A stretch of DNA of 64,000 nucleotides, taken from positions 1 to 64,000 of the forward strand of contig NZ_JAPKNI010000012.1 in the NCBI RefSeq assembly GCF_026343955.1, read 5' to 3'. The first letter of the stretch is position 1. Every line of letters starts with the position of its first letter. The notes under the pieces are model-generated. The model saw only the letters and a program-made list of their open reading frames with translations, searched no databases and was not told the DNA's origin. The position numbers were made by a program, and so were the translations under genes. Positions 15,046 through 64,000 of the stretch are shown here, in pieces. Source of the DNA: Kaistia defluvii (GTDB lineage: Bacteria > Pseudomonadota > Alphaproteobacteria > Rhizobiales > Kaistiaceae).

Positions 15046-15203
15046 CCTCACCCCAACCCTCTCCCGCGCGGCGGGAGAGGGAGTTCTGCAGACCCGGTCG
15101 ATGCGCTGCGCTCACCTTGATAAGGCAGTCGGAAACGACTCATGCCTGGGGACGCGCACCGGCCGAAAACCCTCGCCCGCTCGCGGGAAAGGGTAGGGTG
15201 AGG
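15046..15203. repeat. REPIN-like palindromic element (family A doublet)
   Basis: The element is bounded by CCTCACCC (15046-15053) and its inverse GGGTGAGG (15196-15203). Each end carries its own hairpin: CCCTCTCCCGC paired with GCGGGAGAGGG, and CCCTCGCCCGC paired with GCGGGAAAGGG. It fills the gap between the convergent metY and phaC genes and could stop transcription from both sides. Related copies lie at 34052-34165 and 63375-63493. Confidence 0.75.
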
Positions 15204-15231
15204 GGCTTTCCTTCGTCAGGAAGCGCCCAGG

Positions 15232-25888: not shown

Positions 25889-26017
25889 TTCACCTCTCCC
25901 TGGAGGGAGAGGTCGACGGCCGGAGGCCGGCGGGTGAGGGGTTACGGCCTCACCGGATAGGTTCCTAAACCCTCACCCGGAGCTTCGCTCCGACCTCTCC
26001 CACCAGGGAGAGGTGAA
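25889..26017. repeat. REPIN-like palindromic element (family B doublet)
   Basis: It is bounded by TTCACCTCTCCC (25889-25900) and the inverse GGGAGAGGTGAA (26006-26017). The two halves are inverted copies, each with its own CTCTCCC/GGGAGAG hairpin, and the inner ends carry GGGTGAGG and CCTCACCC. It lies inside the ABC operon, between the binding-protein and permease genes. Confidence 0.75.
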
Positions 26018-34051: not shown

Positions 34052-34165
34052 CCTCACCCCAGCCCTCTCCCGCGCGCGGGAGAGGGGGCAGGTCGAGCCC
34101 GCTGCTGTAACCGCACGGGCACAAAAAAAAGCCCTCGCCCGCTTGCGGGAGAGGGTTGGGTGAGG
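34052..34165. repeat. REPIN-like palindromic element (family A doublet)
   Basis: It is bounded by CCTCACCC (34052-34059) and GGGTGAGG (34158-34165). The halves carry hairpins of CCCTCTCCCGC/GCGGGAGAGGG type, and an eight-A run lies between them. It sits between the convergent hyuB and DUF2093 genes and may terminate both. Confidence 0.75.
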
Positions 34166-34215
34166 GGCTTGCTTGCCGGCGAAATGGCGCGGGCTCAAAG
34201 GGCCCGCGACGGGTC

Positions 34216-62026: not shown

Positions 62027-64000
62027 ATGCATCTCGTCGCCGGCGAAATGGAGCGGATCGACGATGGCGGCAGCGCCGTCGATCTCGACCAGTCGCCCGG
62101 CGACATCGTCATCCTGTCGGCCGCCGACACGGAGCTCGCCGCCTTTGCGTCGGCCTTCGCATCCGCCCCGGAAGGGCCGTCGCTGCGCCTCGCCAACCTG
62201 ATGCAGCTGACGCATCCCTATTCGGTCGATCTCTATCTGGAAAAGACGATCGCGCAGGCGAAGTTCGTCTTCATCCGCATGATGGGCGGCGTCGGCTACT
62301 GGCCCTACGGGCTGGAGGCGCTGCGGGCGCTCTCGCGCGCCGGCGGGCCGCAGATTGCGGTCGTGCCGGGCGAGGATCGCTGGGACGCGGCGCTGGAGGC
62401 GTATACGACGGTCGCACCGGAGATCGCGCAAAAGCTCTGGCGCTATTGCGCCGAGGGCGGCGCGGTCAATATTGGTCGCGCGCTCGGCTATCTCCGGCAC
62501 GTCATCGGCGCGAACGATGCGCCCCCCGAGCCGCAGGTGCTGCCGGAAGTCGGCTTCTACCGTCCTGGCCGAGGCGTGGTGGCCGAGGCCTTGCTTCCCC
62601 GCGATGCCGGCCGCCCGGTGGCGTTTCTCACCTTCTATCGCTCGGTCATTCCCGGCGGCTCGACCGAGCCCGTCGATGCGCTGATCGAGGCGCTGGACCG
62701 GGAGGGAATTGCCACCGCCGCGATCTTCGCCTCCAGCCTGAAGAACGAGGCGGCGGCGGCGTTCATCGAGCAGGCGTTCGACGCGCTGAAGCCGGCCATC
62801 GTGCTCAACGCCACGGCCTTCGCGATTTCGCGGCCCGGCCGGGCGCATGAACCGACCGTGCTCGACCGCGCCGGCCGTCCGGTGCTGCAGATCGTCTTCG
62901 CAGGCACCAGCCGCGAGGCCTGGCTCGAATCCAGCCGCGGTCTCGGCCCGCGCGACCTCATCATGAATGTCGTGCTGCCGGAGGTCGATGGACGCATCCT
63001 GACCCGGGCCGTCTCGTTCAAGGAAGAGGTCGAGAGCGATGGCCGGACCGACAGCCGCATCGTCGTCTATCGCGCCGACCGCGAGCGCATCGCCTTTGTC
63101 GCGGCGCAGGCGGCGCGCTGGATCCGGCTCGGCGCGACGGCTCCGGCCGATCGCCGGATCGCGCTCGTGCTCTCCAACTATCCCGACCGCGACGGCCGCC
63201 TCGCCAATGGCGTCGGCCTCGATACGCCGGAGAGTGCCGCGCGGATCGCGTTGGCGATGAAATCGGCTGGCTACGCGCTGGAGGGCTTCCCGGAGACGGG
63301 CAGGGCGCTGATGGACCTGCTGCTCGCCGGCCCGACCAACGCGCTGGCAAAGCGGGCGGCATTGCGGGAAGAACCCTCACCCAACCCTCTCCCGCAAGCG
63401 GGCGAGGGCTTTTCCGCTGCATGTGTCGCGGAGGACGGCTCCCTTCCTTCACCTCTCCCTGAGGGAGAGGTCGGCCCGCATGGCCGGGTGAGGTTTTACG
63501 GGCTATCCGGAGAGGGCATCTCTCTCTCCCTCGCCGACTACCGTGCCTTCCATGATGGTCTGCCCGACTCCGTGCGGTTCAGCCTGGCCAAACGCTGGGG
63601 CGATCCCGAGGCCGATCCGTTCTTCGACGAAGGCGCTTTCCGTCTCGCCATCCATCGCTTCGGCAATGTCGTGGTCGGCATCCAGCCGGCGCGCGGCTAT
63701 GGCATCGATCCGAAATCGACCTATCACGATCCCGACCTCGTTCCGCCGCATCACTATCTGGCGTTCCACGCCTGGCTGCGGAAAAGCTTCGATGTCGATG
63801 CGATCGTCCATGTCGGCAAGCACGGCAATCTCGAATGGCTTCCCGGCAAGGCGCTGGGGCTTTCCAATGCCTGCTGGTCGGAGGTCGTGCTGGGGCCGAC
63901 GCCGTTGATCTACCCGTTCATCGTCAACGATCCCGGCGAGGGCGCACAGGCCAAGCGCCGCGCCTCGGCCGTTGTCGTCGACCATCTGATGCCGGCGCTG
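62027..64000 (+). CDS. cobN: Cobaltochelatase subunit CobN (3' end cut), with in-frame repeat insert
   Basis: The first 658 codons of the large subunit that inserts cobalt into hydrogenobyrinic a,c-diamide with CobS and CobT. Recognised blocks are the N-terminal LMQLTHPYSVDLYLEKTIAQ and, near 580-658, GIQPARGYGIDPKSTYHDPD, IVHVGKHGNLEWLPGKALGL and FIVNDPGEGAQAKRRA. A repeat at 63375-63493 is read through in frame, adding about 40 residues (450-489) between the GPTNAL segment and the LADYRAFHDGLP segment. No stop or frameshift is seen. The gene continues past the window. Confidence 0.95.
   Translation, partial: MHLVAGEMERIDDGGSAVDLDQSPGDIVILSAADTELAAFASAFASAPEGPSLRLANLMQLTHPYSVDLYLEKTIAQAKFVFIRMMGGVGYWPYGLEALRALSRAGGPQIAVVPGEDRWDAALEAYTTVAPEIAQKLWRYCAEGGAVNIGRALGYLRHVIGANDAPPEPQVLPEVGFYRPGRGVVAEALLPRDAGRPVAFLTFYRSVIPGGSTEPVDALIEALDREGIATAAIFASSLKNEAAAAFIEQAFDALKPAIVLNATAFAISRPGRAHEPTVLDRAGRPVLQIVFAGTSREAWLESSRGLGPRDLIMNVVLPEVDGRILTRAVSFKEEVESDGRTDSRIVVYRADRERIAFVAAQAARWIRLGATAPADRRIALVLSNYPDRDGRLANGVGLDTPESAARIALAMKSAGYALEGFPETGRALMDLLLAGPTNALAKRAALREEPSPNPLPQAGEGFSAACVAEDGSLPSPLPEGEVGPHGRVRFYGLSGEGISLSLADYRAFHDGLPDSVRFSLAKRWGDPEADPFFDEGAFRLAIHRFGNVVVGIQPARGYGIDPKSTYHDPDLVPPHHYLAFHAWLRKSFDVDAIVHVGKHGNLEWLPGKALGLSNACWSEVVLGPTPLIYPFIVNDPGEGAQAKRRASAVVVDHLMPAL
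63375..63493. repeat. REPIN-like element inside cobN
   Basis: Bounded by CCTCACCC (63375-63382) and GGGTGAGG (63486-63493), with internal CCCTCTCCCGC hairpin (family A half, 63381-63408) and CTCTCCCTGAGGGAGAG hairpin (family B half, about 63453-63469). The architecture matches the intergenic doublets at 15046-15203 and 34052-34165. It is read in frame as part of CobN. Confidence 0.85.

Follow-up and report, generated by a model that had tools for sequence, protein, structure and literature searches.

Palindromic REP-type repeats read in frame within two loops of the cobaltochelatase subunit CobN in Kaistia and other bacteria

In-frame palindromic repeats within genes have, to our knowledge, been described chiefly in Rickettsia and otherwise in isolated genes. 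The Rickettsia palindromic elements (RPE) are described as roughly 105-150 bp long, inserted in frame in conserved genes, and tolerated there (PMC2229807, PMC10969869). Another group of dispersed palindromes, the REPINs, consists of two opposed REPs around a spacer, with many dispersed, extragenic copies that are duplicated by a RAYT (Bertels and Rainey 2011, PMC3116915, PMC8049555). REPs themselves have also been reported within genes: Di Nocera et al. 2013 (PMC3733652) describe GTAG- and CGTC-tagged REPs and their dimers, otherwise mostly intergenic, that lie wholly inside ORFs of free-living bacteria. As set out there, the hosts are conserved proteins, some genes are hit twice, and in two Xanthomonas species recB is hit at roughly the same position by different REPs.

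Here, we analyze a repeat segment inside cobN, the gene for the cobaltochelatase large subunit, of Kaistia defluvii (G000; 4.90 Mb in 21 contigs). "The window" denotes the whole stretch of DNA analyzed, that is, positions 1 to 64,000 of contig NZ_JAPKNI010000012.1; other genomes, contigs and loci are given G, C and L numbers. The best explanation of the segment, and one that we consider likely, is that a mosaic of REPs is carried as a tolerated passenger in a permissive loop of CobN.

The cobN segment and the REPs of the K. defluvii genome

The cobN frame comprises 1286 aa and is open from 62027 to 65887, past the end of the window. Its product gives one Pfam match, CobN-Mg_chel (PF02514), at 1192.6 bits, and the gene lies between a cobW-like gene on one side and further cobalamin genes on the other, as named from the ORFs. 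The repeat stretch, 63374-63493, is read in frame as residues 450-489. Within the K. defluvii genome, at least 60 BLAST matches to this segment were found (40 of 188 candidates were scored), each of which, except for the cobN copy itself, covers one part of the query only, either left or right. The open frame, the Pfam match and the dispersed copies thus bear out the view of an initial annotation that a palindromic repeat is read in frame inside an otherwise standard cobN.

Table 1. Features of the window discussed in the text, in window coordinates
Feature	Position	Strand	Basis
cobN, cobaltochelatase large subunit	62027..64000, on to contig 65887	+	open frame; Pfam PF02514
Loop S1 of CobN, recurrent insertion site	63302..63535, residues 426-503	+	13-species and 93-protein alignments; palindrome map
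Type-A REP, single copy	63374..63409	+	nhmmer match
Spacer between the cobN REPs; shorter in G001 and G004	63410..63448	+	DNA comparison
Type-B REP, left half of a type-B doublet	63449..63493	+	DNA comparison
Approximate junction, type-B right half absent	63509..63517	+	inferred by eye from alignments
Type-A opposed doublet (A+A-), overlaps a predicted gene end	15046..15204	.	
Type-A opposed doublet (A+A-), intergenic by our own gene calls	34052..34166	.	
Type-B opposed doublet (B+B-), intergenic by our own gene calls	25889..26017	.	

The same annotation took the segment for a single 119-base element of the kind found at 15046 and 34052, and this has to be revised. Those two are A+A- doublets, and the cobN copy consists of A+ followed by B+, two different REP types. 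The terminal repeats that it was said to share with them are indeed alike at the ends, CCTCACCC and GGGTGAGG; the rest of the element is not. Nor is the segment one unit in relatives, where each piece is present or absent separately: the type-A REP precedes type B in G000, G001, G004 and G013 and is absent in G006 and G010, and the type-B right half, absent at 63509..63517 in G000, is present in G001, G004, G006, G010 and G013, such that K. defluvii alone among these six species has the left half without the right. Because relatives carry both type-B halves and a separate type-A REP, the 119-bp stretch is a mosaic whose outer ends (11 nt, 91% complementarity) mimic terminal repeats.

Both pieces have close counterparts elsewhere in the genome. 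In an 870-kb sample of it, the 36-bp type-A REP of cobN is 100% identical to four other copies, including one at 34131-34166. The type-B half has a 98% match over 48 bp elsewhere in the genome, at C16:584569-584616; the doublet at 25889..26017 is the complete form of this half. The type-B REP (window 63449-63495) also matches the Rfam family whalefall-1 at 21.3 bits (E 0.0025), below the gathering score of 37. The whalefall-1 RNA family might itself be REP-like.

Repeats are a known source of misassembly, and the segment might on that account be an artefact of assembly or sequencing. However, the type-B half is found in five other Kaistia genomes, with species-specific differences and including the single-contig G010, and the type-A REP in three, which makes an assembly error very unlikely, to the point that we give it practically no weight.

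The 870-kb sample, with genes called by a crude caller of our own, contains 77 REPs in 49 clusters, of which 37 are intergenic, 7 overlap gene ends and 5 lie inside predicted genes. With about 88% of the sample coding, such a distribution means that REPs strongly avoid genes. Only two of the five intragenic clusters, those in cobN and in a 5-oxoprolinase/hydantoinase gene, are by our judgement deep in convincing genes, and both are in frame. It had been proposed that a frame without stops matters for the spread of the repeat; in the strongest form of this idea, the family is built to code and spreads through its open frame. Single type-A REPs (n=47) do have 5.0 of 6 frames open, but they average only 34 bp, and the 19 opposed same-type doublets of the sample have 2.74 of 6 frames open, compared with 2.70 in shuffles and 2.91 in REP-free intergenic DNA. 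This lack of excess and the preponderance of intergenic clusters in mostly coding DNA speak against the proposal, and a family built to code is scarcely credible.

As to what moves the REPs, a Y1_Tnp (RAYT) transposase was considered and rejected: the domain was found in none of the 14 Kaistia genomes, most of them drafts, by a search that was positive in 5 of 14 control genomes. By eye, no target duplication with a clean empty site was seen at cobN S1, at the second CobN loop introduced below (S2), or in the 5-oxoprolinase gene. The REPs could have been moved by a trans-acting transposase or by recombination.

Inserts at two CobN loops in Kaistia and other lineages

Of the 14 Kaistia genomes, K. 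defluvii included, 13 have CobN in one open frame; cobN of G008 lies on two contigs and was excluded. Repeat inserts occupy loop S1 in nine of these 13 proteins (G000, G001, G002, G003, G004, G006, G007, G010 and G013), and four (G005, G009, G011 and G012) have none, so that alignment with relatives does not reveal a segment common to all CobN homologues. Another loop, S2, at about residue 840 of the window's CobN and thus beyond the window, holds repeat inserts in six of the 13 (G001, G002, G003, G006, G007 and G010). We distinguish four insert types in Kaistia, A to D, among which type C is CTCCCTCCCCC-like and type D starts with CGTC; in several loops, two types lie next to each other. Type C gave no BLAST match in the 870-kb sample of the K. 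defluvii genome; in other Kaistia species, it is present in several genes and at several sites.

Structure prediction places these inserts in regions that would tolerate them. In an AlphaFold2 model of residues 1-658 of the window's CobN (42 sequences, pTM 0.83), for which the best solved-structure match is the cobaltochelatase subunit 7c6o, the S1 insert at residues 446-495 has pLDDT below 50 and lies between the helix 440-446 and the strand 498-501. The S2 insert of K. adipata (fragment residues 241-278) is also unconfident and lies between two helices, in a weaker fragment model (mean pLDDT 74.8) that is likewise unconfident at residues 1-62 and 324-347. Given the low pLDDT of both inserts, S1 and S2 are predicted to be disordered. 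The earlier suggestion that the repeat is tolerated as a loop agrees with this model, in which residues 446-495 would form a loop between confident elements, compatible with the fold.

The same pattern is observed in another Kaistia gene. A complete type-A doublet (G000:C1:200910-201063) lies in frame in the gene C1:199173-203024 (L239/L240), a 5-oxoprolinase/hydantoinase according to Pfam. Across the 14 Kaistia genomes, this enzyme carries in-frame REP inserts at two loops, at about residues 231 and 558: the former has a REP insert in G001 and G003 and a similar-sized insert in G005, the latter is occupied in G000 and G004, with a different insert in G007, and the remaining Kaistia 5-oxoprolinases lack loop inserts.

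Two further genes came to our attention. A small protein, 143 aa in G000, has a type-B doublet at approximately the same internal place in L069 (G000), L063 (G004), L064 (G013) and L286 (G007); it has no Pfam match, and the one match of L069 in PHROGs (E 0.22) was taken as chance. A gene resembling that of penicillin-binding protein 1C, as judged by eye (L065 in G013, L283 in G010), has a type-B doublet located between the putative start and the membrane segment; this doublet may lie upstream of the true start.

For the comparison beyond Kaistia, we assembled 162 CobN genes, some of them partial, from Kaistia, 80 loci and further chosen genomes. Pseudomonas is represented by the best 30 loci and 8 chosen genomes, out of 56 genomes with CobN, and the search of the order by 29 loci besides our own and 12 chosen genomes (three overlapping), out of 69 genomes with a match. 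Rows taken as duplicates (L071, L072, L073, L075, L151 and L152) were left out, as were L189, L196 and L197, for which longer stretches were used, and L219, which did not pass the filter and where the gene is in three pieces. Some genomes were picked for unusually long CobN frames, and therefore the 14 of 162 genes with S1 inserts and the 32 of 162 with S2 inserts, counted by loop length, are not prevalences. In this unevenly drawn set, the S1 loop is shorter than 45 residues in 148 of the 162 proteins.

Inserts at one or both loops are found in several lineages and derive from unlike repeats. A metagenome-assembled genome (MAG) of Bauldia litoralis has inserts of repeats unlike those of Kaistia at S1 and S2, and its S2 insert has at least 36 matches in the MAG itself (counting both strands). 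G088, another genus of the same family, has an S1 insert with another palindrome, and G107 (S1 and S2) and G144 (S2), from the same order, have palindromic inserts at the same loops; for these, and for the inserts in G136, G141, L104 and G096, the palindrome or the peptide served as the criterion. Pseudomonas sp. BMS12 and P. insulae carry S2 inserts, and the BMS12 insert used as query has at least 24 matches in its own genome and at least 41 in that of P. insulae (both strands counted in each case). A clade of 14 Pseudomonas members that group together in the tree also has S2 inserts, and the insert of one of them has at least 73-119 matches per genome in 10 Pseudomonas genomes, 9 carriers and 1 non-carrier (both strands counted, 40 candidates scored per genome).

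Other insert positions were noticed as well. The CobN of L211 (G107:C3), in a 1456-aa frame, has three palindromic inserts with the peptide APDKPGHD in common; one is close to the N-terminus and the other two occupy S1 and S2. The CobN proteins of Rhizobium sp. SG_E_25_P2 (L104) and of G096 (L215) share a further insert site around columns 560-570 of the alignment, where the peptides resemble PISPLxGEMSGRTEGG.

A palindrome scan of the 162 CobN genes placed 36 of 49 palindromes in S1 and S2, which make up 5.2% of the bases; codon shuffles lead one to expect 3.6 palindromes over all 162 genes. The scan uses ungapped arms, and the window's own copy (L001), a halved mosaic, falls below its threshold. 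Because Kaistia had defined the two loops, the count was repeated without this genus, and 21 of the 30 stronger palindromes were again in S1 and S2. When lineages were merged, 8 of 16 palindromes fell in these loops, against 4.9% of residues (P about 3e-7, a value that depends on the merging scheme and refers to sites chosen after seeing Kaistia). The other eight are in different parts of cobN, and Rhizobium sp. SG_E_25_P2 accounts for two of these. The tree requires at least 4 changes of the S1 state and at least 12 of the S2 state, with states assigned by loop length and a few of the long S2 loops free of a palindrome.

The course of events that we consider likely is as follows. Two REP-type repeats would have entered loop S1 in ancestors of the present Kaistia species and survived because they were in frame and in a loop where additional residues are largely harmless. 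The type-B doublet was probably halved later in K. defluvii; change in the opposite direction, by growth, is the less likely course. S1 and S2 would then be permissive harbours for unlike repeat families in several lineages, and insertions elsewhere or out of frame were presumably mostly lost by selection, so that those that remain cluster at these loops.

Peptide and DNA change within the inserts

The inserts evolve differently as peptide and as DNA. Among six Kaistia species, pooled dN/dS is 0.87 for the insert and 0.13 for the rest of the gene or flanks, the former from 26-74 codons per pair in 15 non-independent pairs with ratios of 0.40 to 1.67. Pooled pS is 0.143 in the insert vs 0.351 in the flanks, although the alignable insert columns lean to the conserved arms, which may lower the insert value. 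The REP segments are 92-100% identical between species, compared with 67-79% at flanking third codon positions. Amino-acid constraint is thus loose and DNA conservation strong: with a dN/dS of about 0.87 and high REP DNA identity, the palindrome is preserved as the peptide drifts. As judged from these comparisons, the element persists as DNA, not as peptide.

This bears on the idea that CobN benefits from the peptide as such, for example as a flexible tether, and that selection keeps it as protein. The peptide is kept in frame across several Kaistia species and the Pseudomonas clade, in keeping with such selection. Nevertheless, the pooled dN/dS is close to that of a freely changing sequence, length and content vary by species, and unlike peptides occupy the same site in other lineages, so we regard a useful peptide as highly improbable. 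Tolerance, for its part, does not account for everything: neutral tolerance alone leaves the slower change of REP DNA than of the flanks unexplained.

The main rival is that the REPs are kept for a nucleic-acid function, either as a hairpin in cobN mRNA (in ribosome pausing between domains or RNA processing) or as a DNA site, and that the loop is merely a harmless place to encode the hairpin, which is compatible with tolerance. The low silent divergence of the Kaistia insert is in keeping with this idea, and so is the strong fold of the window copy, which as RNA is more stably folded than any of 200 shuffles (z -5.1). Further support comes from the Pseudomonas clade, where in 12 of the 14 species the S2 arms vary in concert despite being coding sequence (L217 and L218, with a different insert, were left out; the alignment, A3, comprises L156, L157, L159, L161, L164, L165, L167, L168, L174, L180, L221 and L223). 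In these arms, 95.8% of cells are paired, 98.7% in the main helix, and 22 cells have both-sided changes, with a covariation score of 0.205; cells paired, both-sided cells and score were each matched by 0 of 500 shuffles, and no both-sided cells appeared when the pairing was slid.

Other aspects of the data weigh against a function of this kind. Two covariation measures for the S2 arms do not stand out from shuffles: 7 pairs show a both-sided change, a number equalled or exceeded in 29 of 500 shuffles, and there are 10 further pair types, equalled or exceeded in 497 of 500. The pairing structure was, moreover, derived from the very alignment on which it was tested. Furthermore, 4 of 13 Kaistia CobN proteins do without the S1 insert, K. 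defluvii has only half of the type-B doublet, and rewriting of copies from the genomic pool, or their re-insertion, should produce such co-variation as well. On this balance, we consider it unlikely that the REPs are kept for a nucleic-acid function.

Homogenisation from other copies, re-insertion, arm-to-arm repair or hairpin selection would each keep the palindrome. An informal comparison in Pseudomonas leans towards the first two: the best other copy in the genome of G035 is 90% identical to its cobN insert, and the cobN copies of G027, G032 and G048 are 84-90% identical to it. If the REPs are tolerated passengers, the uniformity of their DNA could stem from exchange with other genomic copies or from self-templated repair of the palindrome. 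In a more ambitious form of this reading, which is possible but on balance doubtful, S1 and S2 are recurrent sites of both landing and survival, and the REPs are active nucleic-acid elements inside a coding gene, having entered Kaistia, Bauldia and Pseudomonas independently and been kept in step with the genomic pool, or repaired arm against arm, through the lifetimes of species groups while the protein evolved around them. On this reading, the hairpin may additionally serve some function in the cobN message.

Relation to known repeat systems

The separate genera in which one enzyme has taken up repeats at the same two loops provide replicated natural experiments on insertion tolerance and on the change of repeats within genes. 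That slowly changing DNA encodes an unconstrained peptide (dN/dS near 1) also raises a testable question, namely whether REPs are kept uniform by copying between loci, arm-to-arm repair or hairpin selection. On the practical side, a peptide like PSPNPLPQAGEG in a predicted protein can be a sign of REP DNA and not of a domain. In the open-licence PMC literature, we found no paper on cobN together with "repetitive extragenic palindromic", none on the tested insert peptides and, among the matches listed, none on Kaistia repeats.

The resemblance to the Rickettsia elements noted in the initial annotation is supported, in that a dispersed palindromic repeat lies in frame in a conserved protein, here in free-living Hyphomicrobiales, and is absent from some relatives. 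As in the published descriptions of RPE, an in-frame palindromic repeat is tolerated by the protein; this likeness is one of description. In contrast to RPE proper as described, with their characteristic long open frame, the Kaistia REP family has no excess of open frames, its 19 doublets having no more of them than shuffles, and the window copy combines two types in a mosaic.

The REPINs, as characterized in the papers cited above, are approached from another side. The REPs of K. defluvii have many dispersed copies, mostly extragenic (37 of 49 clusters in 870 kb), and the S2 inserts of Pseudomonas CobN have the REPIN form of opposed REPs around a spacer. Unlike REPINs, the window copy is A+ followed by B+ and not an opposed same-type doublet, and none of the 14 Kaistia genomes encodes a Y1_Tnp domain that could represent a cognate RAYT.

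A close precedent is the work on intragenic REPs (PMC3733652), the main text of which does not mention CobN, cobalt, chelatase or oxoprolinase. By eye, the Kaistia type D, which is not part of the window's cobN, begins with CGTC like the second superfamily described there, and CGTC is also seen at the outer ends of the S1 insert of G007 and of the S1 and S2 inserts of Bauldia. Types A to C, unlike the tagged REPs of that study, have neither a GTAG nor a CGTC tag at the ends inspected. Since intragenic REPs and in-frame RPE have already been published, the cobN case is a further example of a known phenomenon. What it adds, and what the text of PMC3733652 as available to us does not describe, is the repeated occupation of the same loops, in separate genera, by dissimilar repeat families and the slow change, or upkeep, of repeat DNA inside a coding gene.
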